Of a DNA stretch of 64,000 nucleotides, positions 46,054 through 63,554 are shown piece by piece; position 1 is the stretch's first letter, and the number at the start of each line of letters is the position of its first letter. Where the stretch lies: the NCBI RefSeq assembly GCF_003339525.1, contig NZ_CP031124.1, forward strand, positions 372,001 to 436,000, written 5' to 3'. The position numbers and the translations under genes are program-made. A model generated the notes under the pieces. It had not been told where the DNA came from. It was given only the letters and a program-made list of their open reading frames with translations, and did no database searches. Source of the stretch: Ephemeroptericola cinctiostellae. GTDB taxonomy: Bacteria > Pseudomonadota > Gammaproteobacteria > Burkholderiales > Burkholderiaceae.

Positions 46054-46793
46054 GTTTAAGTGGTTCACAAATCATGAAATTGAGGCGATATGGTATTCGC
46101 TTGATTATCTGGGGGCTGGTTGCGTTTGTGGGATTTAAAGCTTATCAATCCTTTCAAGAGGCGCGGATAGAGGGGCAAAAGAATAGAGTAATGAAGGCCG
46201 CTTATGAAAAAGAAACAGTTCTGACGGATGAGGAAAGAGCAAAAATCAATGCTTTGCCTGAGGAACGAAAGAAAGGGCGGTCATTTGTTAAAAGTGGGGG
46301 GAGCATTTATTCGTTTCCTGCTGAGTATTATTTTAATCAAAGCATGATGATTCATTGGACTAAAGGCAATAATTATTATGGCGCTAGAGGTAAAGGTCAG
46401 TCTAAAGTGGATGATGAAACTATAAGGATTTATATTTTACCTTCAGGGCGAACTGACAGGCAGGGTTTTGATTCTTTGCTAGAAAGTAACTTTCTGATAA
46501 AAGAAAAGTCTCCACAACTTGATATGGATGTTTATGTTAATAAATCGAATAACAATGATATTGAACGCTACTATGTTTTGAGAGGATTTAAAGATGTCAA
46601 TGGGGGTTTTCCAGTTGCAAGATGCGGCTCTAAAAGCGCAAGAAGTGATGATGGGTTTTGTGTAATAGGAGTACAACTTAAATCAAATATTTATTTAGCA
46701 ATGGGTGACATGACAGCCAAACATGTAGATGATTGGCCAGAGATTTATCAAGCAATTATGAGCGTAGCAAACCAAATAGAGGATATTAAATAA
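46050..46793 (+). CDS. Membrane-anchored protein of the RTX locus, paralogue 2
   Basis: A 247-residue paralogue of the gene at 45236 with the same N-terminal anchor (RLIIWGLVAFVGFKAY), Cys pair (RCG, GFC) and C-terminus (EIYQAIMSVANQIEDIK), but a very different central region. TTGGAGG lies ideally before the ATG. The stop overlaps the RTX ATG as TAATG, so translation of the two is probably coupled. The constant linkage to an RTX start suggests a dedicated partner, such as an immunity, anchoring or processing factor; no homology proves this. Confidence 0.75.
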   Translation: MSLSGSQIMKLRRYGIRLIIWGLVAFVGFKAYQSFQEARIEGQKNRVMKAAYEKETVLTDEERAKINALPEERKKGRSFVKSGGSIYSFPAEYYFNQSMMIHWTKGNNYYGARGKGQSKVDDETIRIYILPSGRTDRQGFDSLLESNFLIKEKSPQLDMDVYVNKSNNNDIERYYVLRGFKDVNGGFPVARCGSKSARSDDGFCVIGVQLKSNIYLAMGDMTAKHVDDWPEIYQAIMSVANQIEDIK

Positions 46794-49700
46794 TGAGCGT
46801 TATTACCTACTTAACCCAAGCAGAATACGATGTATTTGTACAAAAAGCCGATGCAGCAACTACGGGGACATATTGGCAACTTTACACATGGTTGGCTGAT
46901 ACCTTAGAAATTAAAGGAATCAGTTCTATCAATCCAACTGTTTTATGGTTGCGTGGCGCAGCCGAAGCCAATGCAGGGCGCGGTGCAATGTCAGAGTTGA
47001 TACGAACTTATAGTTCAACTGAGTATGATTTACGCTACGGCGGTTCGGTGGGTGCAACTTTGATGCAAAAAGCATCGGATGCGGTGGCACAAAATTTAAT
47101 TGCTGATATAAAAGGTGAGCTAAATGATAACTCCATAAAATTTGGAATTCCTGATATTACTCGAATAGCCGAAGCAGACGCTCGCGCAGTAGGCGAAACG
47201 CTTTTTGGTAAAAAATTAGGCCACGACGAATCCGACACCGCCTTTGCCAACAACTCAGGCTGGTCAGGTGCATTGCTATTTACCCAACTGCAATCCGACC
47301 AAACATGGCGTTTAATGTCACCCGTCACGCCAGCCGATACACACGACACCGAAATCAACACCCTCAACGACTGGCGTGACGTACTGTTTGCGTATGTATC
47401 CTACAGCGCAGGCCTCAAAGCCGCCGCCCTCAAGTTCGTCGCCGAAGGACAGCCCCAACAAAACACCGACCTCGTCATTTTAAGCAAGACATTCAGCAGC
47501 TACATCAAAAGCTACATTACAGGTGGCGGAAACGGCGATTTAGAAGCCGCAGTTGTGGGCGGCACGGACAATCCCGCATTGAAAAGCGCATTTCAATTGA
47601 TAGCTGACGTGGGCGTAAATGTTTTCATGGACATGCTCATGGGTGCAGCACTGGGGCGGTCAGTGATTGGCAGCACCAACGATACCAACTTCACCAGCAA
47701 CGCCCGTGCCTTCTTCAGTGCATTGACCCCCAGCCAATTACAAAACATCAGCGCACACCCCCTATCGGACACCTTGTATGACAATGCGACAGCCGCGCAA
47801 ACGGATGTTCGCATTCGCGCAGCCTTGGCAGGATTGAGCGTGGTGGCACTTGATGTCAGTCCAGCGGTTGAAAGTGCGTTGAGTTTATATGACCCATCAA
47901 CAGGTCAAGGTGTCATCACCACCCAGTGGCTGAGTGACCGCGACGAAATGCTGCATTGGGTGAAGCTTTACGGCGCGAGTGGTGTCGCGTTTAATCAGCG
48001 GTTCTCGGTGTTTTCTGAGTTGGGTGAAACTGCGGTTTTAGATGGCGATTATATTTATAAGGACATGGCTTCAGGTTTGACCTTGGACATTGATGGGTTC
48101 AATCCAACGACGTTGCAAAGCAAAATGATTGTGTTTGGTAGTGGCAGTAGTGAAGTGTTGCAAGGGGGTGGTTTGGACGATCATTTGTATGGTGGTGCAG
48201 GGAACGACATAATTGAATCGAGCGAGGGAAATGACTATGTTGAAGGTGGTGCAGGTTTAGATACATATAAGTTTTCAGGAGCATTTAGTGCCGACACTAT
48301 TATGGATAGCGATCACTTTGGTTCTGTAATGTTGGATGGTATAACTTTGTCGCGCGGGACACTTGATTCTGCAACACATGCGGTAAGTGCAGATGGCTTG
48401 GTGTCGTATACGATTATGACGACTGGCTCAGGTTCGACTGCTGCGAGTAATTTGATGATCACCCGTAAAGGTTCAAGTGCGAATAGTATTTTGGTTGAGA
48501 ATTGGGCTAATGGTGATCTGGGGATTTATTTATCGGCTGCCGTCACATTAAATAATCCCGATCCTAACAATCAATTGGGGACTGCGGGCTCGGATGTTTT
48601 AGAAGGCAATCGTTTTAAAAATTCAATTTCAGGAGCTGGCGGCAATGATCTTTTAAGCGGTAATGGTGGTGATGATGTCTTAAATGGAGGTCTAGGTAAT
48701 GATGCATTGTATGGCGATGGTGACACAGCACCTACTGCAGACGAGATAACAAAAAATACATATATTGCAGATGTTGCAGGTAATGATACTTTAGATGGGG
48801 GTAAAGGAAATGATTGTCTGTATGGTGAAGACGGAGCCGATTTACTCCTTGGTGGTGAAGGTGTTGATACTTTAGATGGGGGGAAAGGCAATGACAAGCT
48901 ATATGCAGATGCTGGTGAGGATATTTTAATAGGAAGAGAAGGTGATGATCGTTTATATGGCGGTATGGATGATGATAATTTAGACGGTGGCGAGGGCAAT
49001 GATGCATTATTTGCTGAAGATGGCAATGACATTCTTGATGGCAGGAATGGAAATGATACTTTGAATGGTGGCTCTGGAAATGATATTTTGATAGGCGGTT
49101 TGGGCGCGGATCAAATGACTGGAGGAGAGGGGATTGATGCTTATTATGTTGATGATGTGGGTGACACGGCTGTGGATGTGGCAAGCGTAGACATTGATAC
49201 TGTTTACAGTAGCGTTTCGTTTGTACTGGGGACAGGTTTAGACAATTTGGAATTAACAGAATCAGCTAATTTGACTGGACGTGGGAATACATTAAATAAT
49301 GTCATTATCGGAAACAGCGGTAACAATACTCTTTTTGGTGAAGCTGGAAATGACACAATCACAGCTGATGGCGGAAATGATACGATTGATGGTGGTTCTG
49401 GTAATGATGTCATTGATGCTGGTTTGGGTAATAATAAAATAGATGCGGGCAATGGATCAAATACAATTGATGCATCTTCTGGTAACGACACCATTACTGC
49501 CATGGAAGGAAGTGATACCATCAATGCCGGTGGTGGTGATAATTTGATTAATGCTGGTAGCGGGTCTAATGTAATTGACGCATCTTCTGGTAACGACACC
49601 ATTACTGCCATGGAAGGAAGTGATACCATCAATGCCGGTGGTGGTGATAATTTGATTAATGCTGGTAGCGGGTCTAATGTAATTGACGCATCTTCTGGTA

Positions 49701-52372
49701 ACGACACCATTACTGCCATGGAAGGAAGTGATACCATCAATGCCGGTAATGGTGATAATTTGATTAATAGTGGCTCTGGAGTTGACAGAATTACAGCTGG
49801 TGATGGAAATAATGTCATTAATGCTGGTTTGGGTAATGATGTTATTGATACTGGTTCGGGTAATAATAAAATAGATGCGGGCAGTGGATCAAATACAATT
49901 GATGCATCTTCTGGTAACGACACCATTACTGCCATGGAAGGAAATGACACCATCAATGCCGGTGATGGTGATAATTTGATTAATAGTGGCTCTGGAGTTA
50001 ACAGAATTACAGCTGGTGATGGAAATAATGTCATTAATGCTGGTTTGGGTAATGATGTTATTGATGCTGGTTTGGGTAATAATAAAATAGATGCGGGCAG
50101 TGGATCAAATACAATTAATTCATCTTCTGGTAACGATACTATTACTACTATGGAAGGAAACGACACTATCTATGCAGGCGATGGTAATAATTTGATTGAT
50201 AGCGGTTTAGGAAAAGACTTAATCTCTGTTTATGGCGGAAGTAGTCAAATATTTGCAGGAGCTGGTGATGATTATATTAGTCGCATTGGAAAAGGGATCC
50301 TTACTGAACATGCACTCATACATGCAGGCACGGGCAATGATCAGATTTTTTGTTATTCAGGCCGAGATGCCATTTTTTCTGAGGATGGCAATGACCTCAT
50401 TTATGCGGATGGTTATGACACGATTGATAGTGGTGCTGGGGACGATGCTATTTGGATAACAGGAGGTGGCAATCTGATTCGCGGTGGATTGGGTGCTGAT
50501 AGTATATTTATTGGTTGGGATGAGGGTTTTCCTGTTCTTTATGCGGCTGATATTGTTTATGGAGGAGATGGGAATGATGAGATCAGTTCGGGGCGTGGAG
50601 ATGACAAAGTTTATGGACAGGCGGGCAATGATAATTTAAATGGTGGTTTTGGAAACGATCAACTTGAGGGCGGAGATGGGGCAGATCGCTTAAAAGGCGA
50701 TGAGGGAAATGACACTTTAGTTGGTGGTGCTGGAAACGATTATTATGATGTTGATAGTTTAAGTGATGTTGTTGTTGAGAGGCTTGGCGAAGGAATTGAC
50801 TTGGTTCAATCAGAAGTTGATGTGAATGCTTTATATGCTGGTGTTGAGAATTTAATATTAGTTGCTGGACGAGTCGCAAATGGTAATGAACTTAATAATG
50901 AAATAACGGGTAATTTTAAAAATAATTATATAGATGGTGGTTTGGGCATTGACACCCTTATGGGGGATTGGGGGGATGATATTTATGTTGTCGATAATGC
51001 TGCTGACGTAGTAACAGAGAACTCCAGTGAGGGGACAGACACCATTCAAAGCAGTGTCAGCATCGGTTCATTAGCCGCCAATGTAGAAAACCTTATTCTA
51101 ACGGGTGCGACTTTAATCAACGGCACGGGTAACAACCTCGCAAATCTCATTACCGGTAATATAGCCAGTAACACATTAACGGGTGGTTTAGGCAATGACA
51201 CCTTGAACGGCGGAGGTACCGCCGATATTGACACACTCGTCGGTGGTGCTGGTAATGACACTTACCTGATTAACAGCACTCTGGATGTGATCACTGAATC
51301 CCTTAACGAAGGGGTGGATAGGCTTAGCAGCAGCGTCACGACTTCCTTAATGTCAAATGTCGAGCAATTGGTATTGACAGGCACAGCTGCAATCAATGGC
51401 ACGGGCAATGAGTTGGCCAATTACATGATGGGCAATAGCGCAAACAATGTGCTCAGCGGTGGTTTGGGTGCCGATGTTATCCGTGGCGGACTAGGCAATG
51501 ACACCCTTGATGGTGGCGATGGCAGCGATTGGGTGGATTATCGTTGTATGACCACCGCTGTGACTGTGAATCTAAAGAACACAAGCACTGCACAAAACAC
51601 AGGTGCAGCTGGTTTGGATCTCCTGACCAATTTTGAAAATATCTTTGGTGGCTCAGGCAATGACACGCTCATTGGCAGCCTCAGTGCAAATATCATTCGT
51701 GCTGGCTTGGGTAATGACAGTTTAGATGGTGGCGCTGGTATTGACTATGTGGATTATCGGGATTTTAGCGCGGCTTTGACTGTCAATTTGGGGCTGACCT
51801 CGGCGCAAAACACGGGTGCTGCGGGTACGGACACACTGATTAACTTTGAAAACCTGTTGGGTGGTACTGGGAATGACACGCTCAGTGGCAATGCATTGGC
51901 CAATCGCATTGAAGGCAATGCGGGCAATGATCTCCTAAGTGGAGCGGCGGGCAACGATGCATTGCTGGGTGGCGCGGGTAATGACACATACCAATTTGCA
52001 CGCACTGAGGGTCAGGATGTGATCACCGATACCGATGCAACTGCAGGCAACAGTGATGTGCTTGCATTCCAAACAGGCATCACCAATGATCAGCTGTGGT
52101 TTAAACACTCTGCGAATGATTTGATTGTGAGTGTGATCGGTACAAGCGATCAAGTGACCATCAAAGATTGGTATGCCAGTGGTGTGAGTACTCTAAATAC
52201 CGCATCTGTTATTGAAAGCATCTCGGCTGGGGGTAAGGTCTTGAGCCACACCAAGGTCGAGGCTTTGGTGGGGGCAATGGCGGCGTTTACGGCTCCTGCG
52301 GCGGGGCAAACTACCTTGCCATCTACGTATCAATCCAGTTTGAATACTGTGGTTGCGGCGAATTGGCAGTAG
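46793..52372 (+). CDS. Large RTX (calcium-binding nonapeptide repeat) protein
   Basis: An 1,859-residue protein with no signal peptide. Residues 1-440 are an alpha-helical N-terminal region I do not recognise. Calcium-binding GGxGxDxLx repeats begin near 450, then again from about 600 to 1,240, and four YxVDxxxDxVxE...NGTGN modules follow to about 1,700. The middle block, near 890-1,120, has unusually regular SGNDTITAMEG-type repeats. The C-terminus (DQLWFKHSANDLIVSVIG, then AAGQTTLP and AANWQ) is typical of type I secretion substrates. No HlyB/HlyD genes are in the window. It could be a toxin, adhesin or S-layer-like protein. Confidence 0.88.
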   Translation: MSVITYLTQAEYDVFVQKADAATTGTYWQLYTWLADTLEIKGISSINPTVLWLRGAAEANAGRGAMSELIRTYSSTEYDLRYGGSVGATLMQKASDAVAQNLIADIKGELNDNSIKFGIPDITRIAEADARAVGETLFGKKLGHDESDTAFANNSGWSGALLFTQLQSDQTWRLMSPVTPADTHDTEINTLNDWRDVLFAYVSYSAGLKAAALKFVAEGQPQQNTDLVILSKTFSSYIKSYITGGGNGDLEAAVVGGTDNPALKSAFQLIADVGVNVFMDMLMGAALGRSVIGSTNDTNFTSNARAFFSALTPSQLQNISAHPLSDTLYDNATAAQTDVRIRAALAGLSVVALDVSPAVESALSLYDPSTGQGVITTQWLSDRDEMLHWVKLYGASGVAFNQRFSVFSELGETAVLDGDYIYKDMASGLTLDIDGFNPTTLQSKMIVFGSGSSEVLQGGGLDDHLYGGAGNDIIESSEGNDYVEGGAGLDTYKFSGAFSADTIMDSDHFGSVMLDGITLSRGTLDSATHAVSADGLVSYTIMTTGSGSTAASNLMITRKGSSANSILVENWANGDLGIYLSAAVTLNNPDPNNQLGTAGSDVLEGNRFKNSISGAGGNDLLSGNGGDDVLNGGLGNDALYGDGDTAPTADEITKNTYIADVAGNDTLDGGKGNDCLYGEDGADLLLGGEGVDTLDGGKGNDKLYADAGEDILIGREGDDRLYGGMDDDNLDGGEGNDALFAEDGNDILDGRNGNDTLNGGSGNDILIGGLGADQMTGGEGIDAYYVDDVGDTAVDVASVDIDTVYSSVSFVLGTGLDNLELTESANLTGRGNTLNNVIIGNSGNNTLFGEAGNDTITADGGNDTIDGGSGNDVIDAGLGNNKIDAGNGSNTIDASSGNDTITAMEGSDTINAGGGDNLINAGSGSNVIDASSGNDTITAMEGSDTINAGGGDNLINAGSGSNVIDASSGNDTITAMEGSDTINAGNGDNLINSGSGVDRITAGDGNNVINAGLGNDVIDTGSGNNKIDAGSGSNTIDASSGNDTITAMEGNDTINAGDGDNLINSGSGVNRITAGDGNNVINAGLGNDVIDAGLGNNKIDAGSGSNTINSSSGNDTITTMEGNDTIYAGDGNNLIDSGLGKDLISVYGGSSQIFAGAGDDYISRIGKGILTEHALIHAGTGNDQIFCYSGRDAIFSEDGNDLIYADGYDTIDSGAGDDAIWITGGGNLIRGGLGADSIFIGWDEGFPVLYAADIVYGGDGNDEISSGRGDDKVYGQAGNDNLNGGFGNDQLEGGDGADRLKGDEGNDTLVGGAGNDYYDVDSLSDVVVERLGEGIDLVQSEVDVNALYAGVENLILVAGRVANGNELNNEITGNFKNNYIDGGLGIDTLMGDWGDDIYVVDNAADVVTENSSEGTDTIQSSVSIGSLAANVENLILTGATLINGTGNNLANLITGNIASNTLTGGLGNDTLNGGGTADIDTLVGGAGNDTYLINSTLDVITESLNEGVDRLSSSVTTSLMSNVEQLVLTGTAAINGTGNELANYMMGNSANNVLSGGLGADVIRGGLGNDTLDGGDGSDWVDYRCMTTAVTVNLKNTSTAQNTGAAGLDLLTNFENIFGGSGNDTLIGSLSANIIRAGLGNDSLDGGAGIDYVDYRDFSAALTVNLGLTSAQNTGAAGTDTLINFENLLGGTGNDTLSGNALANRIEGNAGNDLLSGAAGNDALLGGAGNDTYQFARTEGQDVITDTDATAGNSDVLAFQTGITNDQLWFKHSANDLIVSVIGTSDQVTIKDWYASGVSTLNTASVIESISAGGKVLSHTKVEALVGAMAAFTAPAAGQTTLPSTYQSSLNTVVAANWQ
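49469..50165 (+). repeat. 108-bp tandem repeats within the RTX gene
   Basis: Three consecutive 108-bp units start at 49469, 49577 and 49685 and are almost identical at DNA level; the same unit start recurs at 49901 and 50117, spaced by 216 bp (two units). Each unit encodes 36 residues, i.e. four RTX nonapeptides. The DNA identity implies recent unequal recombination or replication slippage. Confidence 0.9.
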
Positions 52373-53233: not shown

Positions 53234-53587
53234 TTAGATCGCTGCTGTGACCACGATTTCCACTGTGAACTCTGGGCCCGCCAATTTTGCCTCAACGGTT
53301 GCGCGTGTGGGTAATCCTTGTGGTGAAATCCATGCTTCCCATGCGCCGTTCATCGCGCCAAAATCAGCCATGTCGGCCAAATAAATGGTTGCCGTGAGCA
53401 ATCGCGTTTTGTCCGTGCCTGCTTTTTCGAGGTAGGTGTCAATTTGTTTGAGGATGTTTGCGGTTTGTTCGCCTGCTGGACGACCAACAACGCTGGTTTC
53501 ATCGACTTGACCTGCGAGGTAGGCGATGCTGTTGTGAATGACCAATTGGCTCATGCGTGCGCCAGAATCAATGCGTTGAATGCTCAT
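53234..53587 (-). CDS. RidA family reactive enamine/imine deaminase
   Basis: A 117-residue YjgF/YER057c/UK114 protein with the RidA beta-alpha fold: LVIHNSIAYLAGQVDE, AGEQTANILKQID, and the C-terminal PTRATVEAKLAGPEFTVEIVVTAA including the conserved Arg that contacts carboxylates. RidA proteins hydrolyse 2-iminoacids released by PLP or FAD enzymes to 2-ketoacids. Placed last after the racemase and a D-amino-acid dehydrogenase, it could hydrolyse the iminoarginine formed by the dehydrogenase. The TTTCTCCG Shine-Dalgarno complement (CGGAGAAACAC) precedes the ATG. Confidence 0.85.
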   Translation of the reverse strand: MSIQRIDSGARMSQLVIHNSIAYLAGQVDETSVVGRPAGEQTANILKQIDTYLEKAGTDKTRLLTATIYLADMADFGAMNGAWEAWISPQGLPTRATVEAKLAGPEFTVEIVVTAAI

Positions 53588-53702: not shown

Positions 53703-55553
53703 TCAGTAAATTTTTTTGCCTAATGCCGACAATACAAAATGCAATGTGTGGTGCACGCGCTGATCGGAATCTTCTGCCGCCAATCCCGTGACCGATAGAC
53801 CCAAGACCCGACACGATTGATGTACTGTTTCCATGGTTTGATGGGTTTCGCGGAAGGTGATCCCGCCTGCGCCTTCGCCTGCATCGCCGCGAATGTCTGA
53901 TACATTCGGATTATAATTCACCCACACGCCTTCTGTGCCGCTACTCGCCAATAAAATCGCGCGACGCGTGACCTCATGCATGCCCAATGCGTCAATGTCG
54001 GCAATTGTGAACACATTCACCCGCGAGGCACGCAGCGCATTGGCTTCGTTGGGTGAAGTGCTGCGCAAACCGACCAACACCACATTCTCAGGTGACAATA
54101 CGGGTGTGAGCAAATCTTGCGGCTCACCCTTGAATGAATGGTACAAACTGCTGGCGGGGCCGTAAGTGTGAGTGGGTTCAAAATGCGCTTGTGCATCAAA
54201 AACAATCAAGCCGATCGCATCGTGCAGCTGTGTCGCAGCTTGTAGCGCAATATGTGTTGACATGCTGTCCTGACCGAACACCAAAGGCATGTCTTCATCT
54301 TTTAGTGTGGCTTGAATGTGTTCATCCAAGCTGTTTTCAGCATCCACCACGCGGGTCGGGTGCATGTCGATGTGTAATTCAGCCAAGCGAGCGGGCAAGT
54401 CAATTTCCTTGCTGAAACGTTCAAGCTCAGGGTCGGTGACAATGGTCAATGAGCGGTTGTGCATGGTGTCTTCTTCGTCTTGGCGTTTTGGGGTTTTTTG
54501 GACATATTCAGAAGTCATGGCCGCCAATAAAGCCGAGTAACCCATGTGAAAGTGCACTTTATCGCCCACTTCTGGTGGTGGATCCATGGCTTCAATGTCG
54601 ATGATGAGGTGATCGGACGATGCGCCGAGCAGTTCAACTCGTTGATCAATTGGTGTGAGGCTTTCGGGATTGACATCCTCACGACCGATGTTCAAAATCC
54701 CACGCAAACGTTCACCCCGATCAACAAATGTCGGTACATTGCCAAAAGCATCGACCGATGTTTTACCAATGGGGCGCGACGGTTTGCGCTTGACTTCAAT
54801 CAATTCGCCTTCGAGCAAAAAGGCATCGCGGTTCAATGCACGCCACGGTTCGTCATAAAACGTGTCGCGCCCACCTTGCAAAATGGCCTCGCCAACGCGC
54901 AAATGATTGATGCCTGCAGGCAAGCCTTTTTCCAACAACAGCGGCAATGAACCTGAATTTCCGCCTGAAACATAACGCAGTTTCAGGTCAAACTTTTCTT
55001 CAATTTGCTTGGCATAATGCGCCAATCGACCCAAATTCTCATCCGATGGCATGACCGCAGACAGGCACAGTAAATTTGTGCCCAAACCAATCAAACGCAC
55101 ACCGGGCAAATCCTGCACCCGAGCCACCACATTGTCCAAATCATCAGGCCACACGCCTTCGCGCAAATCACCCAAATCCACCATTAAAATGATGTCATGG
55201 ATCTTGGAGCGACGCACCGCAGCCGCAGACAAAGCCTCGATGATTTCCAACTCAGAATTCAAACTGATGTCCACATCCTTGACCACCTCATCAACCAAAG
55301 ACAAGGGCGGCGAGCGCAGCAATAAAATCGGTGCGGTGATGCCCGAATCACGCAAACGACGGATGTTTTCAAAACGCGATTCGCCAATCCCAGTCACACC
55401 GCCACGCAACATCGCTCGCGCGACTTGCGGCATGCCACATGTGCCTTTGGTCACGCCAAACACCTCAATGCCCGACTCGGCGCATTTTGAGGTGACCGCC
55501 CGCGCATTGGCTTCGATGATGTCTAAATCAACAATGACTTGAGGTCCACTCAT
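53703..55553 (-). CDS. Ornithine/arginine racemase-like PLP domain fused to a degenerate ureohydrolase-like domain
   Basis: A 616-residue two-domain protein. Residues 1-360 match the ornithine-racemase branch of the alanine racemase fold: VFGVTKGTCG with the PLP Lys at 36, SLNSELEIIEALS, LMVDLGDLREG, GLGTNLLC, SGGNSGSLPLL and HLRVGEAI. Residues about 365-616 resemble arginase/agmatinase in layout, with HIDMHPTR, FGQDSM, DAQAHFEP, WVNYNPN and GGITFRE at the positions expected for GGDHS, DxHxD, SxDxDxxDP and GGLTxRE, but the metal-binding His and Asp are lost. It is probably a racemase with a non-catalytic partner domain. It precedes ridA; the start has no strong Shine-Dalgarno sequence. Fusion rather than two genes is certain from the single frame. 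Confidence 0.8.
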   Translation of the reverse strand: MSGPQVIVDLDIIEANARAVTSKCAESGIEVFGVTKGTCGMPQVARAMLRGGVTGIGESRFENIRRLRDSGITAPILLLRSPPLSLVDEVVKDVDISLNSELEIIEALSAAAVRRSKIHDIILMVDLGDLREGVWPDDLDNVVARVQDLPGVRLIGLGTNLLCLSAVMPSDENLGRLAHYAKQIEEKFDLKLRYVSGGNSGSLPLLLEKGLPAGINHLRVGEAILQGGRDTFYDEPWRALNRDAFLLEGELIEVKRKPSRPIGKTSVDAFGNVPTFVDRGERLRGILNIGREDVNPESLTPIDQRVELLGASSDHLIIDIEAMDPPPEVGDKVHFHMGYSALLAAMTSEYVQKTPKRQDEEDTMHNRSLTIVTDPELERFSKEIDLPARLAELHIDMHPTRVVDAENSLDEHIQATLKDEDMPLVFGQDSMSTHIALQAATQLHDAIGLIVFDAQAHFEPTHTYGPASSLYHSFKGEPQDLLTPVLSPENVVLVGLRSTSPNEANALRASRVNVFTIADIDALGMHEVTRRAILLASSGTEGVWVNYNPNVSDIRGDAGEGAGGITFRETHQTMETVHQSCRVLGLSVTGLAAEDSDQRVHHTLHFVLSALGKKIY

Positions 55554-55811: not shown

Positions 55812-57065
55812 TTATCCTTTAAAAATTAACCCCGCCGTGTCCATTTCAGGTGTACGACCCAATAACAAGTCGGTCACCACTTTACCGCTGCCACAGCTCA
55901 TGGTCCATCCCACATGGCCGTGACCAGTGTTGAGCAATAAATTTGAATACTTGCGCGTGCGGCCAATCACAGGGACAGACGAAGGGGTCATGGGGCGCAA
56001 ACCCGCCCAACGTTCAGCACCCTCATAATCTGCAGCATTTGGGAATAACTCATTGATGGTTTTCAATACCGTTTTGAAATCCGCAGGCGTGTGTGTTCGA
56101 TCCCAGCCCGCAAATTCAGCGGTGCAGGCCACACGAATGCGATCGCCCAAGCGCGAATACGCAATCAATTTATCATCGTCCACACCCCCCATGATGGGTG
56201 CAGCCGTTTCATCGGTGATCTTTGCGGTGATCGAATACCCTTTGACGGGATACAAAGCCAATTTCACACCAATTTCAGACAGCAGCAAGGGGCTGTCACA
56301 ACCTGTGGCCAAAATATAGGCGTCGGCAGTGAAGCCACCTTTGTCCGTGACGATTTTGGTGACTTTATCGCCCGTGGTTTCAATCGTTTTAATCGACGTG
56401 CCCCAATTGAAACGAACGCCCATGTTTGATTCGCACCATGCAGCCAAATTTCGGCTGAATTTACATGAATCACCCGTTTGATCAACGCCGCACAAAATGC
56501 CGCCGGCCAATTGATTGGCGGAGTGTTTCAAGCCTGAATCATGGCGCACCAAGCCTTCGCGATCCAGCACCTCAATCGGCAAGCCCTTGTCGGCCATGAA
56601 CTGCATGTGCGACACCCCATGATCGAGTGTTTCTTGCGAGCGATAAAAATACAACACGCCTTTTTGCACGCGGTCAAACTGCACACCGGTTTTCTCCGCC
56701 AGTAATGCCATTTGCTCGCGCGCGTACACGGACAATCGCAGCTTTTTCTCAGTGTTTTCAAGGGCTTTTTTTGCGGTGCATTGACCCAAGAATTTCAGTG
56801 TCCATGCGATAAAACGGGGGTCCAAATTTGGTTTAACCTTGATGCCCATATCGGGTTTGACCAAGGATGAAACAAATGTTTTGAGTGCCGCAGGCGAAGC
56901 CCATGCGAAAGAATCGCCTGGCGTGATCAACCCCGCATTGCCGTAACTGGTTTCAGAAGCCGCGGCCGCTTGACGGTCAATGACCGTGACCTCGCAACCC
57001 GCTTGAGCGAGGTGATAGGCCGTGGTCACACCCACCACGCCTGCGCCGAGAACGATGACTTTCAT
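55812..57065 (-). CDS. FAD-dependent D-amino-acid dehydrogenase (DadA family)
   Basis: A 417-residue flavoprotein beginning MKVIVLGAGVVGVTTAYHLA, with the later GLRPMTPSSVPVIGRT and NTGHGHVGWTMSCGSGK of DadA-type enzymes. They oxidise D-amino acids to the 2-imino/2-keto acids and pass electrons to the respiratory chain at the inner membrane. AAAGGA precedes the ATG; the longer open frame upstream is unsupported. Between the aldehyde dehydrogenase and racemase genes, it likely oxidises the D-arginine made by the racemase to 2-ketoarginine. Substrate is an inference; D-Ala or D-Orn are possible. Confidence 0.85.
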   Translation of the reverse strand: MKVIVLGAGVVGVTTAYHLAQAGCEVTVIDRQAAAASETSYGNAGLITPGDSFAWASPAALKTFVSSLVKPDMGIKVKPNLDPRFIAWTLKFLGQCTAKKALENTEKKLRLSVYAREQMALLAEKTGVQFDRVQKGVLYFYRSQETLDHGVSHMQFMADKGLPIEVLDREGLVRHDSGLKHSANQLAGGILCGVDQTGDSCKFSRNLAAWCESNMGVRFNWGTSIKTIETTGDKVTKIVTDKGGFTADAYILATGCDSPLLLSEIGVKLALYPVKGYSITAKITDETAAPIMGGVDDDKLIAYSRLGDRIRVACTAEFAGWDRTHTPADFKTVLKTINELFPNAADYEGAERWAGLRPMTPSSVPVIGRTRKYSNLLLNTGHGHVGWTMSCGSGKVVTDLLLGRTPEMDTAGLIFKG

Positions 57066-57210
57066 AACAATCCTTTGTAAGGGCATGCGAAAAAAGTAAA
57101 ATTCTTTTTTTGCATCCCGTGTTACCAACGCCACACCCGTAGATTGACTCGCAAGGCAAGTGCTGCACAAGTACGGCGCAAATGCCACATGAGGTCACAG
57201 GCGTTGAATT

Positions 57211-58662
57211 TTAACCTTTAAATGTCGACACATGCTTGACGCCAAGGTACGCAGATAAGCCCCAAGGCCCTAATTCTCGGCCAATGCCACTGCCTTTGAA
57301 GCCGCCCCACAGTGTTTGCGGGAAAATCACTTGGGGCGAATTGATCCAAATGTGACCCGACATGATTTGATCGGCGAGGCGTTCAGCGCGTGGCATGTCG
57401 GCCGTGACAATGGTGGCCACCAAACCAAAATCACTGTCATTCGCCAGTTCAATCGCCTGTGCTTCGTCATCAAAATACGTCACCACCAAAATGGGCCCAA
57501 ACAATTCTTCACGCCAGAAGGGGTGATCAAGGGCAATGTCATCGTAAATCGTGGGCGGCACGCACCAACCGTCGCCGTTCGCTGGCAACTCACCACCAAC
57601 CAAACAATTCAGCCCCTCTTTTTTCGCTTGCTCAAACACGCCTGCAATTTTAGTGAATTGCGGTTGATTACTCAAAGGCCCCATTTCCACGCCTTCAGTG
57701 AACGGCGAACCATATTGGAGCTGTTGGCAACGCGCCACCAGCGCAGGCATGAGACGATCGCGCATGCTGCGTTGAACAATCAAACGCGAAGTGGCGGAGC
57801 ACATTTGGCCGCAATTAAAGAAAATACCAGCGACAATTTGCGCCACCGCGCTGTCAATCGGTGCGTCATCAAACACCACAATCGGTGATTTGCCACCCAA
57901 CTCAAGGGACACGGGTTGGCACCGTGCAGAAGCGGCTTGCATAACGCGCGAGCCGATGGCGTTGGAGCCGGTGAACGATAATTTCGCCAGTCGCTTGTCC
58001 GAAGTCAGTGCCATGCCCGTCACCGCCGCACCTGTGAGGATGTTCAGCACGCCTGCGGGCAGGCCAATTTCAGCAGCGATGTCGCCATACACCAGCTCTG
58101 CCAGCGGCGTGTATTCCGATGTTTTGATGACAATGGTGCAACCTGCTGCAAGGGCTGGAGCGATTTTCCACGCGCTGGTGACCAAGGGGAAATTCCACGG
58201 CACAATCATGCCCACCGCGCCCACCGCTTCATGCCGTGTGCGACCACTGTAATGGTCATCGGGCAAATGCACGGGTGTGCTTTGTTTGCGTTCCAAATCT
58301 TCGGCCATCTCAGCGTAATATTCAAAAGTTGCCACCGCATCGCCCACATCAATTTCCGCTTCAAAACGTGGTTTGCCATTGTTGCGCATTTGCACTTCGA
58401 TGAGCTGTTCGCTGCGCGCCTGCACACCCGCCGCCATTTTGCGCAAAAACACAGCACGGCGAATACCGCCTAAATCACGCCACGCAGGAAACGCAGCGAC
58501 GGCATGGGCGACGGCATCACGCGTATCGCCCTCAGAGGCTGTGGCCAATGTGGCCAGTGGTTCACGCGTCGAAGGGTCAAATGCAGTCCACGGCTCGCCA
58601 TGACCATCGGTGAAAGAACCGTTGATGAATAAGCTTTGGCTGCGGGTAAGAAGTGGATTCAT
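57211..58662 (-). CDS. Aldehyde dehydrogenase, probable 4-guanidinobutyraldehyde dehydrogenase
   Basis: A 483-residue NAD(P)-dependent aldehyde dehydrogenase with PWNFPLVTSAWKIAPALAAG, catalytic Glu254 in LELGGKSP and nucleophile Cys288 in FFNCGQMCSA. It resembles betaine- and aminoaldehyde dehydrogenases. Located between the 2-ketoarginine decarboxylase and the dehydrogenase, it would oxidise 4-guanidinobutyraldehyde to 4-guanidinobutyrate. ATG 58662 has a GAGAC Shine-Dalgarno sequence; the frame is open to 58728. Confidence 0.85.
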   Translation of the reverse strand: MNPLLTRSQSLFINGSFTDGHGEPWTAFDPSTREPLATLATASEGDTRDAVAHAVAAFPAWRDLGGIRRAVFLRKMAAGVQARSEQLIEVQMRNNGKPRFEAEIDVGDAVATFEYYAEMAEDLERKQSTPVHLPDDHYSGRTRHEAVGAVGMIVPWNFPLVTSAWKIAPALAAGCTIVIKTSEYTPLAELVYGDIAAEIGLPAGVLNILTGAAVTGMALTSDKRLAKLSFTGSNAIGSRVMQAASARCQPVSLELGGKSPIVVFDDAPIDSAVAQIVAGIFFNCGQMCSATSRLIVQRSMRDRLMPALVARCQQLQYGSPFTEGVEMGPLSNQPQFTKIAGVFEQAKKEGLNCLVGGELPANGDGWCVPPTIYDDIALDHPFWREELFGPILVVTYFDDEAQAIELANDSDFGLVATIVTADMPRAERLADQIMSGHIWINSPQVIFPQTLWGGFKGSGIGRELGPWGLSAYLGVKHVSTFKG

Positions 58663-58821
58663 GGGTGTCTCTTTTTTAGAATGGCTTGTCTCAAGCCATC
58701 GTTCTTCATATTGGATCGGTTGAATCAAAACAATGCGATGCTCTACTCAATGTAAACGGCAGAAAGGCCGCATGAGGACAAAGCACCTGACTTTTCAACC
58801 TCAAAGGGGTGCCCATTGCCT

Positions 58822-60420
58822 TCACCAGCTCAACGCATCGGCCTCATTGATTTCAATGACAGTTGGATTGGTCGTCACATGCGCTTTCGCAACGAGTTCC
58901 TGCAGATGCGCGATGCTGGTGGCACGCTCTGCATGGCAACCATAACCACGGGCGATCATCAATAAATCAGGCGTATAAATGTCCACGCCGATCGTCGTGA
59001 TGTCACGGTCAGTCATGTATTTTTTGATTTCACCATAACATTGGTTGTTCCAAACCACGATGGGCAAGTTCAGGCCAATTTCCACCGCACTGGCAAATTC
59101 AGGCAAAGTGAATTGAAGGCCGCCGTCGCCAATCAGACCAACCACAGGGCGGTCTGGGCACGCGATTTTTGCACCAAACGCGGCGGGCAAAGCATAGCCC
59201 AATGTGCCGTAACCCGTCGATGAGTTGTACCATGCACGTGGGGTGTCGGGTTCAAAAGTCAAATTGCCACTGTACACGGGTTGATTTTGATCGCCGATGA
59301 TGATGGTGTTTGGCGCGACATTGCGAATCGCCTCAATCACGCGCTGGTGCACGTTTTGCGTTGGGTTGATGAGCGCTTGTAATTGGGTTCGCAACTCAGC
59401 CACCTGTGCTGCCACACCTGTCAACGGTACGGCATCTTTCACCACATCGGCCAGTGCAGTGAGTGCGTGCTTGGCATCGGCCACAATCGCCAACGAAGGC
59501 GGCGCATTGCGATAAAGCTGTTCTGGATCAAGGTCAATGCGAATCAATTGACCGTTGATTTCAGGTTTGGCATCGAACAACAAGGTGTCGGTTTCACCCA
59601 ACTCTGTGCCCACCGCAAGTACCACGTCGGCGTTTTTCAATAATTCCAAAACAGGGGGCTGACACAACGTGCTGCCCAAAGACAAGGCATGATCGCGAGG
59701 TAAAATGCCTTTGCCATTGATGGTGGTCACCGCCATTGCACCGAGCGATTCGGTGATGGCCGTTGCCTGAGCTGCGGCATCCGCCGCACCACCGCCGAAG
59801 ATCAACAATGGATTTTTGGCATTTTTCAACAATGTGGCCGCCGCCGCAATCGCATCAGGTGCCGCCGCAGGACGAGAGCTTTTCACCGCAACAGGTACTT
59901 TTAAATGTTCTGCGGATGCGGTGATCACATCCAATGGCAGCTCAATGTGCACAGGGCGTGGGCGAGCGGAGTTAAACACTGCAAAAGCACGTGCCAGCAC
60001 ATCGGGCAATTCATCAGGGCGCATCAAGGTGTGGCTGAATGCGGACACACCCGCGAGCAATTGCTGCTGATTGGGCAGCTCATGCAAACGACCATCGCCA
60101 TGTGCCAATTCATGGCGGCCATTGACCGAAGAAATCACCAACATCGGAATCGAATCGGCATACGCTTGTCCCATCGCTGTCGCGATGTTGGTCATTCCCG
60201 GCCCCGTGATGATGAAGCAGGCGGGGATTTTGCCTGAGGTGCGTGCATAGCCATCGGCCATGAAACCCGCACCTTGTTCGTGACGTGGCGTGATGTGACG
60301 AATTTTGGTTTTTGGCAAACCACGATACAGCTCCACGGTGTGCACACCAGGAATGCCGAACACGGTGTCAACACCATAGGCTTCTAAAACTTGTACTAAA
60401 TACTCACCGCAGGTTTGCAT
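58822..60420 (-). CDS. aruI: 2-ketoarginine (5-guanidino-2-oxopentanoate) decarboxylase, AruI type
   Basis: A 532-residue thiamine-diphosphate enzyme. The N-terminus (TCGEYLVQVLEAYGVDTVFG) and TPRHEQGAGFMADGYAR with the catalytic Glu48, the central domain, and the C-terminal TPP/Mg motif GDGGLQFTLPEFASA plus WNNQCYGEIKKY are intact. These N-terminal blocks match, as I recall them, proteins annotated as 5-guanidino-2-oxopentanoate decarboxylase. It decarboxylates 2-ketoarginine to 4-guanidinobutyraldehyde. Adjacent to gbuA, aldehyde dehydrogenase and D-amino-acid dehydrogenase genes. Acetolactate synthase is the main alternative, disfavoured by context. Confidence 0.82.
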   Translation of the reverse strand: MQTCGEYLVQVLEAYGVDTVFGIPGVHTVELYRGLPKTKIRHITPRHEQGAGFMADGYARTSGKIPACFIITGPGMTNIATAMGQAYADSIPMLVISSVNGRHELAHGDGRLHELPNQQQLLAGVSAFSHTLMRPDELPDVLARAFAVFNSARPRPVHIELPLDVITASAEHLKVPVAVKSSRPAAAPDAIAAAATLLKNAKNPLLIFGGGAADAAAQATAITESLGAMAVTTINGKGILPRDHALSLGSTLCQPPVLELLKNADVVLAVGTELGETDTLLFDAKPEINGQLIRIDLDPEQLYRNAPPSLAIVADAKHALTALADVVKDAVPLTGVAAQVAELRTQLQALINPTQNVHQRVIEAIRNVAPNTIIIGDQNQPVYSGNLTFEPDTPRAWYNSSTGYGTLGYALPAAFGAKIACPDRPVVGLIGDGGLQFTLPEFASAVEIGLNLPIVVWNNQCYGEIKKYMTDRDITTIGVDIYTPDLLMIARGYGCHAERATSIAHLQELVAKAHVTTNPTVIEINEADALSW

Positions 60421-60446
60421 ATTTAATCTCACTCTCATGGTTCAAT

Positions 60447-62387
60447 TTAATTTAAACGTATTTTGTTTTTTTCAAACACATTACTTTTGATTTCCCAATC
60501 CACAATGGGGTGTAAGCTAGCATGGGTTGCTGCGTACATTTGGCGTGCCAACTTAATGCCTGACGGCGTTTTAACCATCTCTTGATACAAGGGTTTGGTT
60601 AACTTCAAACGGCCTTGTTCAGATAAAAAATGTTGCAAGCGTTGCGTGATGGCGGGTTGATATTTGGCTTGCAACGCATAACGCAACCAGTAATATTCAA
60701 GAATTAAATTACTGGATTGACTGAGCTTAAATTGCGCGTCCAAGTCATCCAACTTGCGGACAGCCATGTGGGTCGGTAAATCCTGAATAAAATGTTGCCA
60801 ATGGTTGATTGTCCAGTCTTTGGTGTCGATTTGTGCCGCAGCAATATCGCCTTTGACAAATGATTTTCGCGCGGCATCGACTGCTGCAAAAGCCGTGGTG
60901 CTGGGCACAAAACCATCTTTTGGATAACCCGCTTGGTAAATCCACTCTTTCACTTTCGCATGGCTCATCTTGCCAGGAAATTTGTCAATTAAATGGGTGT
61001 ATAAATAGTTTTCAAAGTCTTCCGTGGTGATGGTTTTCCACGCAAAATCTTTAAAATATTGATTGGTAAACTCATCAAAAGCAGGGCGACCATACACATG
61101 CTCCAATGTGGTCAAAAATAAAGAACCTTTGCCATAAGGCACCTCAGTGAACACATCATCGGGGTGCTTGCCTTTTAAATTGATCGCCAATTTTTGAGCC
61201 GCAGGTTCAAGGTCTTTCATCTCATCCATGGTTTCTTTGAACAACACCGCACGCTCCAGATCTGCACGTTCTGCACCATAGGTTTTTTCAATGATGCGTT
61301 TCTCAACATAGGTGGTGAACCCTTCATTGAGCCACAGGTCACGCCAATAGCGATTGGTCACCAAATTGCCAGACCACGAATGAGCCAACTCGTGAGAAAC
61401 AAGGGAAACAAGGTCTCGATTGCCCGTGATGATGGTGGGCGTGGCGAATGTTAAACGCGCATGCTCCATGCCACCGAATGGAAAACTGGGTGGCATAACC
61501 AAAATATCATAACGATCCCATGCGTACTTGCCATACATCGACTCAACCGCTTGAATCATTTTTTCTGTGTCAGCAAACTCATGGGCCGCCTTATCAACCA
61601 TTGATTTTTCGGCATAAACACCCGAGCGTGGGCTGATCGCAGAAAAACCATAGTCCCCAACCGACAAGGCAATGAGGTATGGCACCATGGGTTGCGGCAT
61701 GTCAAAGTGGTACGTACCCTTGTGCTCAACATCGGGCGCATTGACCGCGCTCATTTTGGCTACCAAATCAGGTGGCGTGGTGATGTCAGCCGCATAGGTC
61801 ACGCGAATCGCGGGTGTGTCTTGCTGAGGAAACCATGTGCGCCCATAAATGGATTGCGACAGGCTGTACATTAAAGGCTTTTTCTTGTCGAAAGTTTGCT
61901 CTGGATTCGCCCAACTCAAACCATCAGAATCTTCCGTGGTCTCATAAGTGATTCTGACTTTACGCGTGTCTGCTGCGATCTGAATGGTCAATGGCGAACC
62001 CAGTATTTTGTCCTTTTTACCTAAAACATAAGGCGCATCCTTGAGCTGATCCCCCTCAAAAACTTGGACAGACTTAATGTTCAAACCTTTGCTGTCCAAT
62101 ACCAATCGGGTGCTGTTGGGTCGAACATGGGCAATGCTTAAATCCACATAACCATCCAACACTTTGCGATCAAAATTCACATTCAAATTAAGGTAAACAT
62201 GGGTCATCTGCACTTCGTCAATGTTGGCGTAACTGTGCATGTCACGGGCAATGGGTTCAGCAGCCAGCAAGGGCGGTAGCACTTCGGTATTGGCATGCGA
62301 CACCTCAGCAAAGCCCATACCCAAAAGCACACTCAATCCAATGAAATACGACATCCGTTTAGCAGGGCAAAAAGATAACCGAGTCAT
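60447..62387 (-). CDS. Secreted M1-family zinc aminopeptidase (LTA4 hydrolase-like)
   Basis: A 646-residue M1 metalloprotease with an N-terminal signal peptide (YFIGLSVLLGMGFAEVSHA), the substrate motif GGMEHARLTF and the zinc motif HELAHSW with the second Glu in NEGFTTYVEKR. The C-terminal armadillo-like domain matches leukotriene A4 hydrolase-type enzymes. It removes N-terminal residues from peptides in the periplasm. GGAG is placed ideally for ATG 62387. It lies between gbuA and aruI, so it may feed arginine released from peptides into the pathway; that is an inference. Confidence 0.88.
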   Translation of the reverse strand: MTRLSFCPAKRMSYFIGLSVLLGMGFAEVSHANTEVLPPLLAAEPIARDMHSYANIDEVQMTHVYLNLNVNFDRKVLDGYVDLSIAHVRPNSTRLVLDSKGLNIKSVQVFEGDQLKDAPYVLGKKDKILGSPLTIQIAADTRKVRITYETTEDSDGLSWANPEQTFDKKKPLMYSLSQSIYGRTWFPQQDTPAIRVTYAADITTPPDLVAKMSAVNAPDVEHKGTYHFDMPQPMVPYLIALSVGDYGFSAISPRSGVYAEKSMVDKAAHEFADTEKMIQAVESMYGKYAWDRYDILVMPPSFPFGGMEHARLTFATPTIITGNRDLVSLVSHELAHSWSGNLVTNRYWRDLWLNEGFTTYVEKRIIEKTYGAERADLERAVLFKETMDEMKDLEPAAQKLAINLKGKHPDDVFTEVPYGKGSLFLTTLEHVYGRPAFDEFTNQYFKDFAWKTITTEDFENYLYTHLIDKFPGKMSHAKVKEWIYQAGYPKDGFVPSTTAFAAVDAARKSFVKGDIAAAQIDTKDWTINHWQHFIQDLPTHMAVRKLDDLDAQFKLSQSSNLILEYYWLRYALQAKYQPAITQRLQHFLSEQGRLKLTKPLYQEMVKTPSGIKLARQMYAATHASLHPIVDWEIKSNVFEKNKIRLN

Positions 62388-62491
62388 GTTTATTCTCTCC
62401 TTCATTTTAATAAATTCAGAAACACCCGGAAAAACATGGGATTGCTTTTCACTTTAAGGACTGAGCTGTGCTCAAAAACACATGGCAAAAC

Positions 62492-63448
62492 TTAAGCGTA
62501 CTTCACACCGGGCAACACACATAACATTTCAAACAACAAATTCGCACCGAGCAAAGACGTGTTGCCCGTTGAGTCATACGGCGGCGACACCTCAACCAAA
62601 TCACCACCAATGATGTTCAAACCTTTGCAACCCCGCACAATTTCCAAACCCTGTTGCACCGTCAAACCACCCACTTCTGGTGTGCCTGTTCCGGGCGCAA
62701 ATGCTGGATCCAAGCCATCGATGTCATACGAAATGTACACAGGGCCATCGCCCATCATGGCACGAACCTCATCCATCAACGGTGCGAGTGACTTGTGCCA
62801 GCATTCTTCAGCTTGCACCACACGAATGCCTTGTGCGCGGCACCAATCAAAATCTTCAGCCGAGTAACCCGTGCCACGCAGGCCAATTTGCACCATGCGA
62901 TGTGGATCAATCAGGTTTTCTTCGAGGGCGCGGCGAAACGGGGTGCCGTGGGCAATTTTTTCACCAAACATTTCATCGTTGACATCCGCATGTGCGTCAA
63001 TGTGGACGACACCAATTGGCTGTGCATGCTTCTTGCGCAAGGCGCGTAAAATCGGCAATACGATGGTGTGATCACCACCCAAAGTCAAAGGCACAACCCC
63101 CGCATCAGCGACTTTGTCATAGTATTCTTCGATGATGCGAATCGAATCAAGCAGATTGAATGTGTTGATCGGGCAATCGCCCAAATCAGCCACTTGCAAC
63201 GACTCAAATGGTGCCGCACGCGTGGCCATATTGTAGGGGCGCAACAGGCTGGATTCGGCGCGAATTTGGCGGGGTCCATAGCGTGCGCCCACGCGATTGG
63301 ATGTGCCAATGTCAAACGGCACACCGATAAAACCAACGTCAATGTTGTCGGACAATGTCGCCATCGGTAAACGCATCATGGTCGCAATGCCACCCGCGCG
63401 TGGCATGTCATTACCACCCAATGGTTGATTGAATTTAGAAGCTTGCAT
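62492..63448 (-). CDS. gbuA: Guanidinobutyrase (ureohydrolase)
   Basis: A 318-residue arginase-fold manganese enzyme with all metal motifs: GGDHT (124-128), DAHADVND (151-158) and SYDIDGLDP (240-248). The N-terminus (QPLGGNDMPRAGGIATM) and QAEECWHKSL block match the guanidinobutyrase GbuA of Pseudomonas as I recall it, rather than agmatinase SpeB. It cleaves 4-guanidinobutyrate to GABA and urea. AAAGGA precedes ATG 63448; a longer open frame to 63541 overlaps the promoter. First gene of the cluster. Confidence 0.85.
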   Translation of the reverse strand: MQASKFNQPLGGNDMPRAGGIATMMRLPMATLSDNIDVGFIGVPFDIGTSNRVGARYGPRQIRAESSLLRPYNMATRAAPFESLQVADLGDCPINTFNLLDSIRIIEEYYDKVADAGVVPLTLGGDHTIVLPILRALRKKHAQPIGVVHIDAHADVNDEMFGEKIAHGTPFRRALEENLIDPHRMVQIGLRGTGYSAEDFDWCRAQGIRVVQAEECWHKSLAPLMDEVRAMMGDGPVYISYDIDGLDPAFAPGTGTPEVGGLTVQQGLEIVRGCKGLNIIGGDLVEVSPPYDSTGNTSLLGANLLFEMLCVLPGVKYA

Positions 63449-63525
63449 AAGAAATTCCTTTAGGCTCAATGAGGCTTTTGTATTGAAAAAAGCACCGTTC
63501 TGTACAAACCAGTCTATTTTGGACA

Positions 63526-63554
63526 ATACTAAGCGAATCATCGGACACTGTCAA
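63526..63554 (-). promoter_or_regulatory. Strong sigma-70-type promoter of the gbuA operon
   Basis: Minus-strand TTGACA (63549-63554, consensus) and TAGTAT (63526-63531) with exactly 17 bases between. It lies about 75 bases upstream of the gbuA ATG and just downstream of the preceding terminator. Confidence 0.75.

Follow-up and report, generated by a model that had tools for sequence, protein, structure and literature searches.

A putative arginine racemase fused to an arginase-derived domain with an apparently lost catalytic site and retained subunit-interface residues

The ornithine decarboxylase (ODC)/arginase fusion of Fusobacterium nucleatum (Oda), a protein of ornithine/arginine metabolism, has Ser and Asn in place of two aspartate metal ligands (PMC8503589, PMC12826042). 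The metformin hydrolase pseudoenzyme subunit MetCb also belongs to the arginase family; five of its six ligands are replaced and it serves as a metal-free binding partner of the active MetCa (PMC11271267). The protein analysed here is a 616-residue fusion of a racemase to an arginase-like domain, encoded in a 64,000-nucleotide stretch of Ephemeroptericola cinctiostellae DNA (contig NZ_CP031124.1, positions 372,001 to 436,000; hereafter the window). Trypanosoma brucei TbARG is said to have the arginase fold without a manganese cluster, like the window domain, but is a stand-alone eukaryotic protein. Oda shares the loss of ligands, but is an aspartate aminotransferase (AAT)-fold decarboxylase reported from Fusobacteriaceae only, whereas the window protein has the alanine-racemase fold (PF01168), occurs in several phyla and has lost more of the catalytic site. 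MetCb, in turn, is a separate protein paired with an active subunit, whereas the guanidinobutyrase (GbuA)-like protein of the window lacks the arginase interface residues. The ornithine racemase Orr (NF040742) matches the N-terminal domain over nearly its whole length; unlike Orr, however, the window protein stays below the family cut-off, bears an arginase domain and lies in an arginine rather than an ornithine cluster. From RocF of Bacillus caldovelox and B. subtilis the window domain differs in the metal ligands, the His141 and Glu277 equivalents and the substrate loop. No paper on a racemase/arginase fusion was found in a search of the open-licence PMC literature.

The gene and its two domains are located as follows.

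53703..55553, minus strand: fusion gene, Orr-type racemase plus apparently dead arginase domain, 616 aa, single open frame
54492..55553, minus strand: Orr-type fold-III pyridoxal phosphate (PLP) racemase domain, residues 1-354 (NF040742, 405.9 bits, cut-off 480; invariant columns)
53706..54455, minus strand: arginase-fold domain, apparently without catalytic site, residues 367-616

As the sequence-only reading of this DNA had proposed, a PLP racemase and a ureohydrolase-like domain are joined in one frame: PF01168 matches residues 8-224 (114.2 bits) and PF00491 (Arginase) residues 395-590 (59.5 bits, above the cut-off of 22), while the four motifs named in that reading (FGQDSM, DAQAHFEP, NYNPN and GGITFRE) are all found in the translated protein. 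Lys36, in GVTKG, is presumably the PLP lysine and is invariant in the homologue alignment (A1). The C-terminal domain has the arginase fold, although the protein does not reach the curated arginase family TIGR01229 (66.4 bits versus a cut-off of 227.6). A homologue search matched 2332 of 8000 scored candidates at E ≤ 0.001, unfused racemases possibly included, and both Pfam domains were present in 118 of 120 homologues among the matches listed. The ratio of nonsynonymous to synonymous substitution rates (dN/dS) against a congeneric copy (G002; one pair) amounts to 0.019 in the racemase portion and 0.017 in the arginase portion, which indicates purifying selection on both in this pair. The confirmed fold, the two-domain homologues and the low dN/dS of the arginase part together argue that the observation is not due to chance. 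An error in the gene start or reading frame was rejected as the source of the fusion, with fusions of similar length recurring across many records.

The catalytic positions were compared in the numbering of B. caldovelox arginase (1cev alignment).

54264..54266, minus strand: S430, replacing metal ligand His99
54183..54197, minus strand: D453-A-Q455-A-H457 at the positions of Asp122, His124 and Asp126; Asp122 alone is kept
53904..53912, minus strand: N548-P-N550, replacing metal ligands Asp226 and Asp228
53784..53786, minus strand: G590, replacing the guanidinium-binding Glu271 (human Glu277); Glu kept in 2 of 255 fusions

Five of the six ligands are thus replaced (His99 by S430, His124 by Q455, Asp126 by H457, Asp226 by N548 and Asp228 by N550); the proposed loss of the metal ligands holds for these but is not total, Asp122 being retained as D453. 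The position of human His141 is occupied by P466 or a gap, depending on the alignment, and its loop is unrecognisable. The invariant RE of RETHQAME was ruled out as a retained guanidinium-binding Glu277, as the 1cev alignment places these residues at Arg249/Glu250 and G590 at Glu271. The survey of relatives covered 255 fusions, near-copies included: 212 of 214 proteins, each of the 212 at least 560 aa long (P0014 and P0095 left out as short), and 43 fusions from genomic loci. Intact ligands number zero in 8 of these, one in 51, two in 127, three in 42, four in 8, five in 8 and six in 11. Asp122 is retained in 178 and His99 in 123, the retained sets varying among lineages, and His139 is present in one (the His loop aligns poorly, with gaps). 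The six ligands, His139 and Glu271 occur together in none of the 255. Loss of the metal ligands is therefore not universal, since 11 fusions keep all six, whereas the full catalytic set is lost throughout the sample. A still-active bifunctional arginase-racemase was considered for these 11 and rejected; because none has a His139 or Glu271 equivalent, no activity is claimed for them. In the 228 fusions that keep no more than three ligands (effective number 108), the conservation ranks of the metal columns run from 79 to 217 among 250 columns. Taken together, the C-terminal domain seems, from sequence comparison, to be derived from an arginase whose catalytic site has apparently been lost.

In contrast to the eroded catalytic site, four charged residues are nearly invariant. 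The human residue numbers are our own assignment, based on the human sequence and an alignment offset of 589 to 276; a 2020 study by Lobos reportedly deals with Glu256 and Asp204 in the arginase oligomer.

53991..53993, minus strand: D521, equivalent to B. caldovelox Asp199 and human Asp204, trimer interface; 255 of 255 fusions
53847..53852, minus strand: R568-E569, equivalent to Arg249-Glu250 and human Arg255-Glu256, of which Glu256 is oligomer-linked; Arg in 253 and Glu in 254 of 255
53829..53831, minus strand: E575, equivalent to Glu256 and human Glu262, the partner of Arg308 (PMC7925462); 254 of 255

This tetrad is complete in 253 of the 255 fusions, the exceptions being P0120 (incomplete) and L051 (His for Arg). 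In the 228 fusions keeping no more than three ligands, only six of 250 columns have a conservation that rounds to 1.00 (G448, T516, D521, E569, E575 and G612); unweighted, D521 is found in all 228, and E569 and E575 in 227 each, with one gap. Among 70 charged positions of arginase, just five reach a retention of 0.95 or more, namely the tetrad and Glu167; when sequences are grouped at 70% identity (about 76 clusters), the tetrad is retained at 0.987-1.00. A control set of 39 canonical ureohydrolases (from 41 loci, two of which were excluded because of their length) behaves in the opposite way: the six ligands and Glu271 are present in all 39 and His139 in 38, but the tetrad in only the five nearest arginase, and the tetrad is therefore not required by the fold. 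In arginase I, Arg308 bridges to Glu262 and, in rat, to the Asp204 of the neighbouring subunit; the Arg308Ala enzyme is monomeric and guanidinium restores the trimer, while B. caldovelox arginase, which lacks Arg308, holds free L-arginine at that place (PMC7925462). The window protein likewise has no Arg308 at its C-terminus, where I615 stands (at the end of the alignment). Because the partners of Arg308 are kept while Arg308 itself is absent, a retained arginase-type interface is the best reading of the tetrad. The explanation favoured here, judged about evenly balanced but leaning in its favour, is that the protein is an arginine racemase whose arginase-derived C-terminal domain would no longer hydrolyse arginine and would be kept as a subunit-interface module assembling the racemase, probably with C-domain trimers atop the racemase dimer.

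The substrate assignment draws on the neighbouring genes of the window, all on the same strand.

53234..53587, minus strand: RidA-family imine deaminase (PF01042, 87.1 bits)
55812..57188, minus strand: DadA-like D-amino-acid dehydrogenase (NF001933, 449.7 bits, cut-off 383)
57211..58728, minus strand: aldehyde dehydrogenase, presumably for 4-guanidinobutyraldehyde (PF00171, 501.3 bits)
58822..60438, minus strand: 5-guanidino-2-oxopentanoate decarboxylase, AruI type (NF005712, 768.9 bits, cut-off 500)
60447..62405, minus strand: leukotriene-A4-hydrolase-like M1 aminopeptidase within the guanidino operon (TIGR02411, 462.9 bits, cut-off 761.7)
62492..63541, minus strand: ureohydrolase, presumably guanidinobutyrase GbuA (TIGR01230, 206.4 bits, cut-off 174.3; NF002564, 283.1 bits, cut-off 302)

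The ord-ortA-ortB-oraS-oraE cluster is not present around the fusion; AruI, aldehyde dehydrogenase, DadA, RidA-family and ureohydrolase genes stand there instead. This context reads as a route from L-arginine through D-arginine, 2-ketoarginine, guanidinobutyraldehyde and guanidinobutyrate to 4-aminobutyrate (GABA) and urea, which supports the earlier suggestion of a racemase feeding a guanidino pathway. The fusion is probably the enzyme converting L-arginine to D-arginine; the DadA-like enzyme and the Rid protein would then yield 2-ketoarginine, followed by 4-guanidinobutyraldehyde, 4-guanidinobutyrate and finally GABA plus urea. Iminoarginine from the D-arginine dehydrogenase DauA is deaminated by Rid2 and Rid3, but not by RidA or Rid1 (PMC5619798).

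Relatives of the fusion occur in several phyla, as judged by record titles. A scan of genome contigs confirmed at least 565 stretches, and the best 80 loci comprise 42 fused (19 titled Mesorhizobium) and 38 unfused racemases; two unfused rows are doubtful, as L049 is truncated by the edge of its contig and L048 has a frame that terminates four bases short of the contig edge. Flanks of at most 10 kb, often cut by contig ends, were analysed with our own thresholds for gene calls. Three fused loci have AruI in their flanks (L027, L033 and L037), 24 more a DadA-like gene (on the opposite strand in L058), five lie in ornithine-degradation clusters and ten in neither setting; the unfused loci lie in ornithine clusters in 20 cases and in neither setting in 17, with DadA in one. 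In the ornithine genes of L050, L040, L087 and L043, nine proteins exceed the NCBIfam cut-offs for Ord, OrtA, OrtB, OraE or Or-4, and two further proteins do likewise or, in the case of the small OraS (L050, 14811-15173), have no match. At the genome level, AruI is found above cut-off in all six of the tested alphaproteobacterial genomes with an arginine-type fusion and in none of three others. Near the window the full-length fusion is rare, occurring in two of 61 genomes, the source genome included. Three fused loci, L063 (Rhodococcus) and L058 and L072 (Pseudogulbenkiania), keep Asp226 and Asp228 and lie in neither an ornithine nor an AruI context, forming a third setting. With residues 363-616 as query, 64 matches were obtained. 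Many of them resemble fragments and come from short contigs, and roughly the last twelve are arginases some 300 aa long; P0230, P0242 and P0261 are among a few on long contigs. In P0242 (Mesorhizobium marinum, 358 aa) the arginase-like part stands by itself on a contig of 121 kb, and could be either one piece of a split fusion gene or a stand-alone protein.

A tree of the racemase domain (64 rows, quick method, midpoint root) places the window protein with 13 others, AruI-linked loci among them, in one branch (SH-aLRT 100), separate from the ornithine-type racemases, and requires six changes between the fused and unfused states. Unfused L052 is nested beside fused L043 (support 87) and may have lost the arginase domain secondarily. 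The unfused racemase L076 (Photobacterium halotolerans) sits on a very long branch adjacent to the window clade, and its flanks hold no ornithine or arginine genes above thresholds. At two loci a separate six-ligand arginase above the TIGR01229 cut-off comes directly after an unfused Orr: L087 (Acididesulfobacillus acetoxydans), within a full ornithine cluster, and L056, with just one ornithine-cluster gene. In the phylum of L043, a six-ligand fusion has matches at E ≤ 1e-60 in eight of 297 genomes; six of these are full-length and two cover the racemase only. The six-ligand fusion L144 from this phylum ends an ord-ortA-ortB-oraS-oraE-or4 operon; L145 and L147 have the same gene order with four and five ligands, and the ornithine-cluster fusions L040 and L043 keep four and three. 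A true arginase would thus have stood beside an ornithine racemase in ornithine-degradation clusters and then have been fused to it; the substrate loop and Glu277 would have been lost after fusion, then the metal site, followed by a move to arginine. The direction of this fusion-and-erosion history is one that we infer, the tree being unrooted beyond its midpoint.

Several observations weigh against an arginine racemase with a retained assembly module. Glu181, which we take to equal human Glu186, a substrate contact, is retained in 248 of 255 fusions and would suit a ligand site. The tetrad was chosen partly post hoc, guided by the invariant columns, and could mediate a contact other than the arginase trimer; the oligomer of the C-domain is itself one that we infer. 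Over longer distances the C-domain is less conserved than the protein as a whole: in one set of 35 rows, identity to the window protein is 35-69% for the C-domain and 52-81% for the full sequence. The full-length structure model has a predicted template modelling score (pTM) of only 0.67, and the mutual placing of the two domains is therefore not fixed. Of the 38 unfused loci, 20 have their Orr in an ornithine cluster, so racemisation in itself does not depend on the domain. The six-out-of-six result for AruI has no control from fusion-free relatives, includes two Aminobacter genomes and counts L033, for which AruI was already known. Finally, mutation of Glu278 disrupts the B. caldovelox arginase hexamer (PMC11271267), but this position ranks 246 of 250 in conservation, and the dimer-of-trimers contact may therefore be lost.

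The strongest competing explanation, though a doubtful one, is a guanidino-compound sensor, as the sequence-only reading had suggested, in which arginine or guanidinobutyrate at the subunit interface would switch the assembly or activity of the racemase; binding is predicted. A sensor is plausible, and its candidate site would be this interface and not the old active site, where most substrate residues are gone. The kept Asp204 and Glu262 equivalents, the missing Arg308, the free L-arginine in B. caldovelox arginase and the guanidinium-driven trimerisation of the Arg308Ala enzyme (PMC7925462) all fit a sensor, as does the arginine pathway in which the protein operates. However, the fusions do not keep Glu278, a residue associated with the hexamer of B. 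caldovelox arginase and, according to a reference title, with its arginine-activation site, and five fused loci lie in ornithine clusters. A more specific version, a shade less probable still, treats the dead arginase as an arginine-gated assembly switch: catalysis would have been abandoned, while the intersubunit guanidinium site, filled by Arg308 in mammals and by free arginine in B. caldovelox, would have become fixed and would now couple the arginine level to trimerisation and activity of the arginine racemase.

It is improbable that the domain is an evolutionary leftover that does no more than help the racemase to fold or stay soluble. The uneven erosion of the catalytic site, with different ligands lost in each lineage, would be expected of a leftover, but its dN/dS is as low as that of the racemase part (one pair), and the four charged residues are held across the clusters. 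Pairing with an active ureohydrolase, either GbuA or the true arginase of the genome, in the manner of MetCb with MetCa (PMC11271267), is very unlikely. A GbuA-like gene does lie in the same operon and a canonical arginase of the source genome (L003) has the tetrad; the GbuA-like protein of the window (L001), whose six ligands are intact, has, however, none of the four tetrad residues. Moreover, a GbuA-like gene is found above threshold in the flanks of only three of the 42 fused loci, and a canonical arginase above the TIGR01229 cut-off in only five of 17 fusion genomes, several of them drafts (19 were searched, the other two having unfused Orr). The suggested scaffold for GbuA is likewise disfavoured, as L001 lacks the interface residues and the five ornithine-cluster fusions have no GbuA-like gene above threshold in their flanks. 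A new metal-free or single-metal activity in the former pocket is hardly probable either, for although Asp122, His99 and Glu181 are often retained, the metal columns of fusions keeping no more than three ligands take ranks 79-217 of 250 in conservation and the retained sets differ among lineages.

Elsewhere in the window, a protein of 1859 aa (46793-52372, plus strand) has many Asp/Gly-rich repeats, seen by eye and presumably of RTX type; the two open reading frames preceding it (260 and 247 aa) have no NCBIfam match at 1e-10.

Within the literature searched, the fusion is an undescribed and widespread case of an enzyme domain that is without its chemistry but retains subunit-interface residues, and intact adjacent arginases and metal-retaining fusions may represent surviving intermediates. 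Should arginine bind to the retained interface, this would show that the arginine site seen at the interface of one bacterial arginase can be useful, and under selection, in the absence of catalysis. For the source genome and several Alphaproteobacteria, the fusion predicts a racemase-dehydrogenase entry to the 2-ketoarginine pathway.
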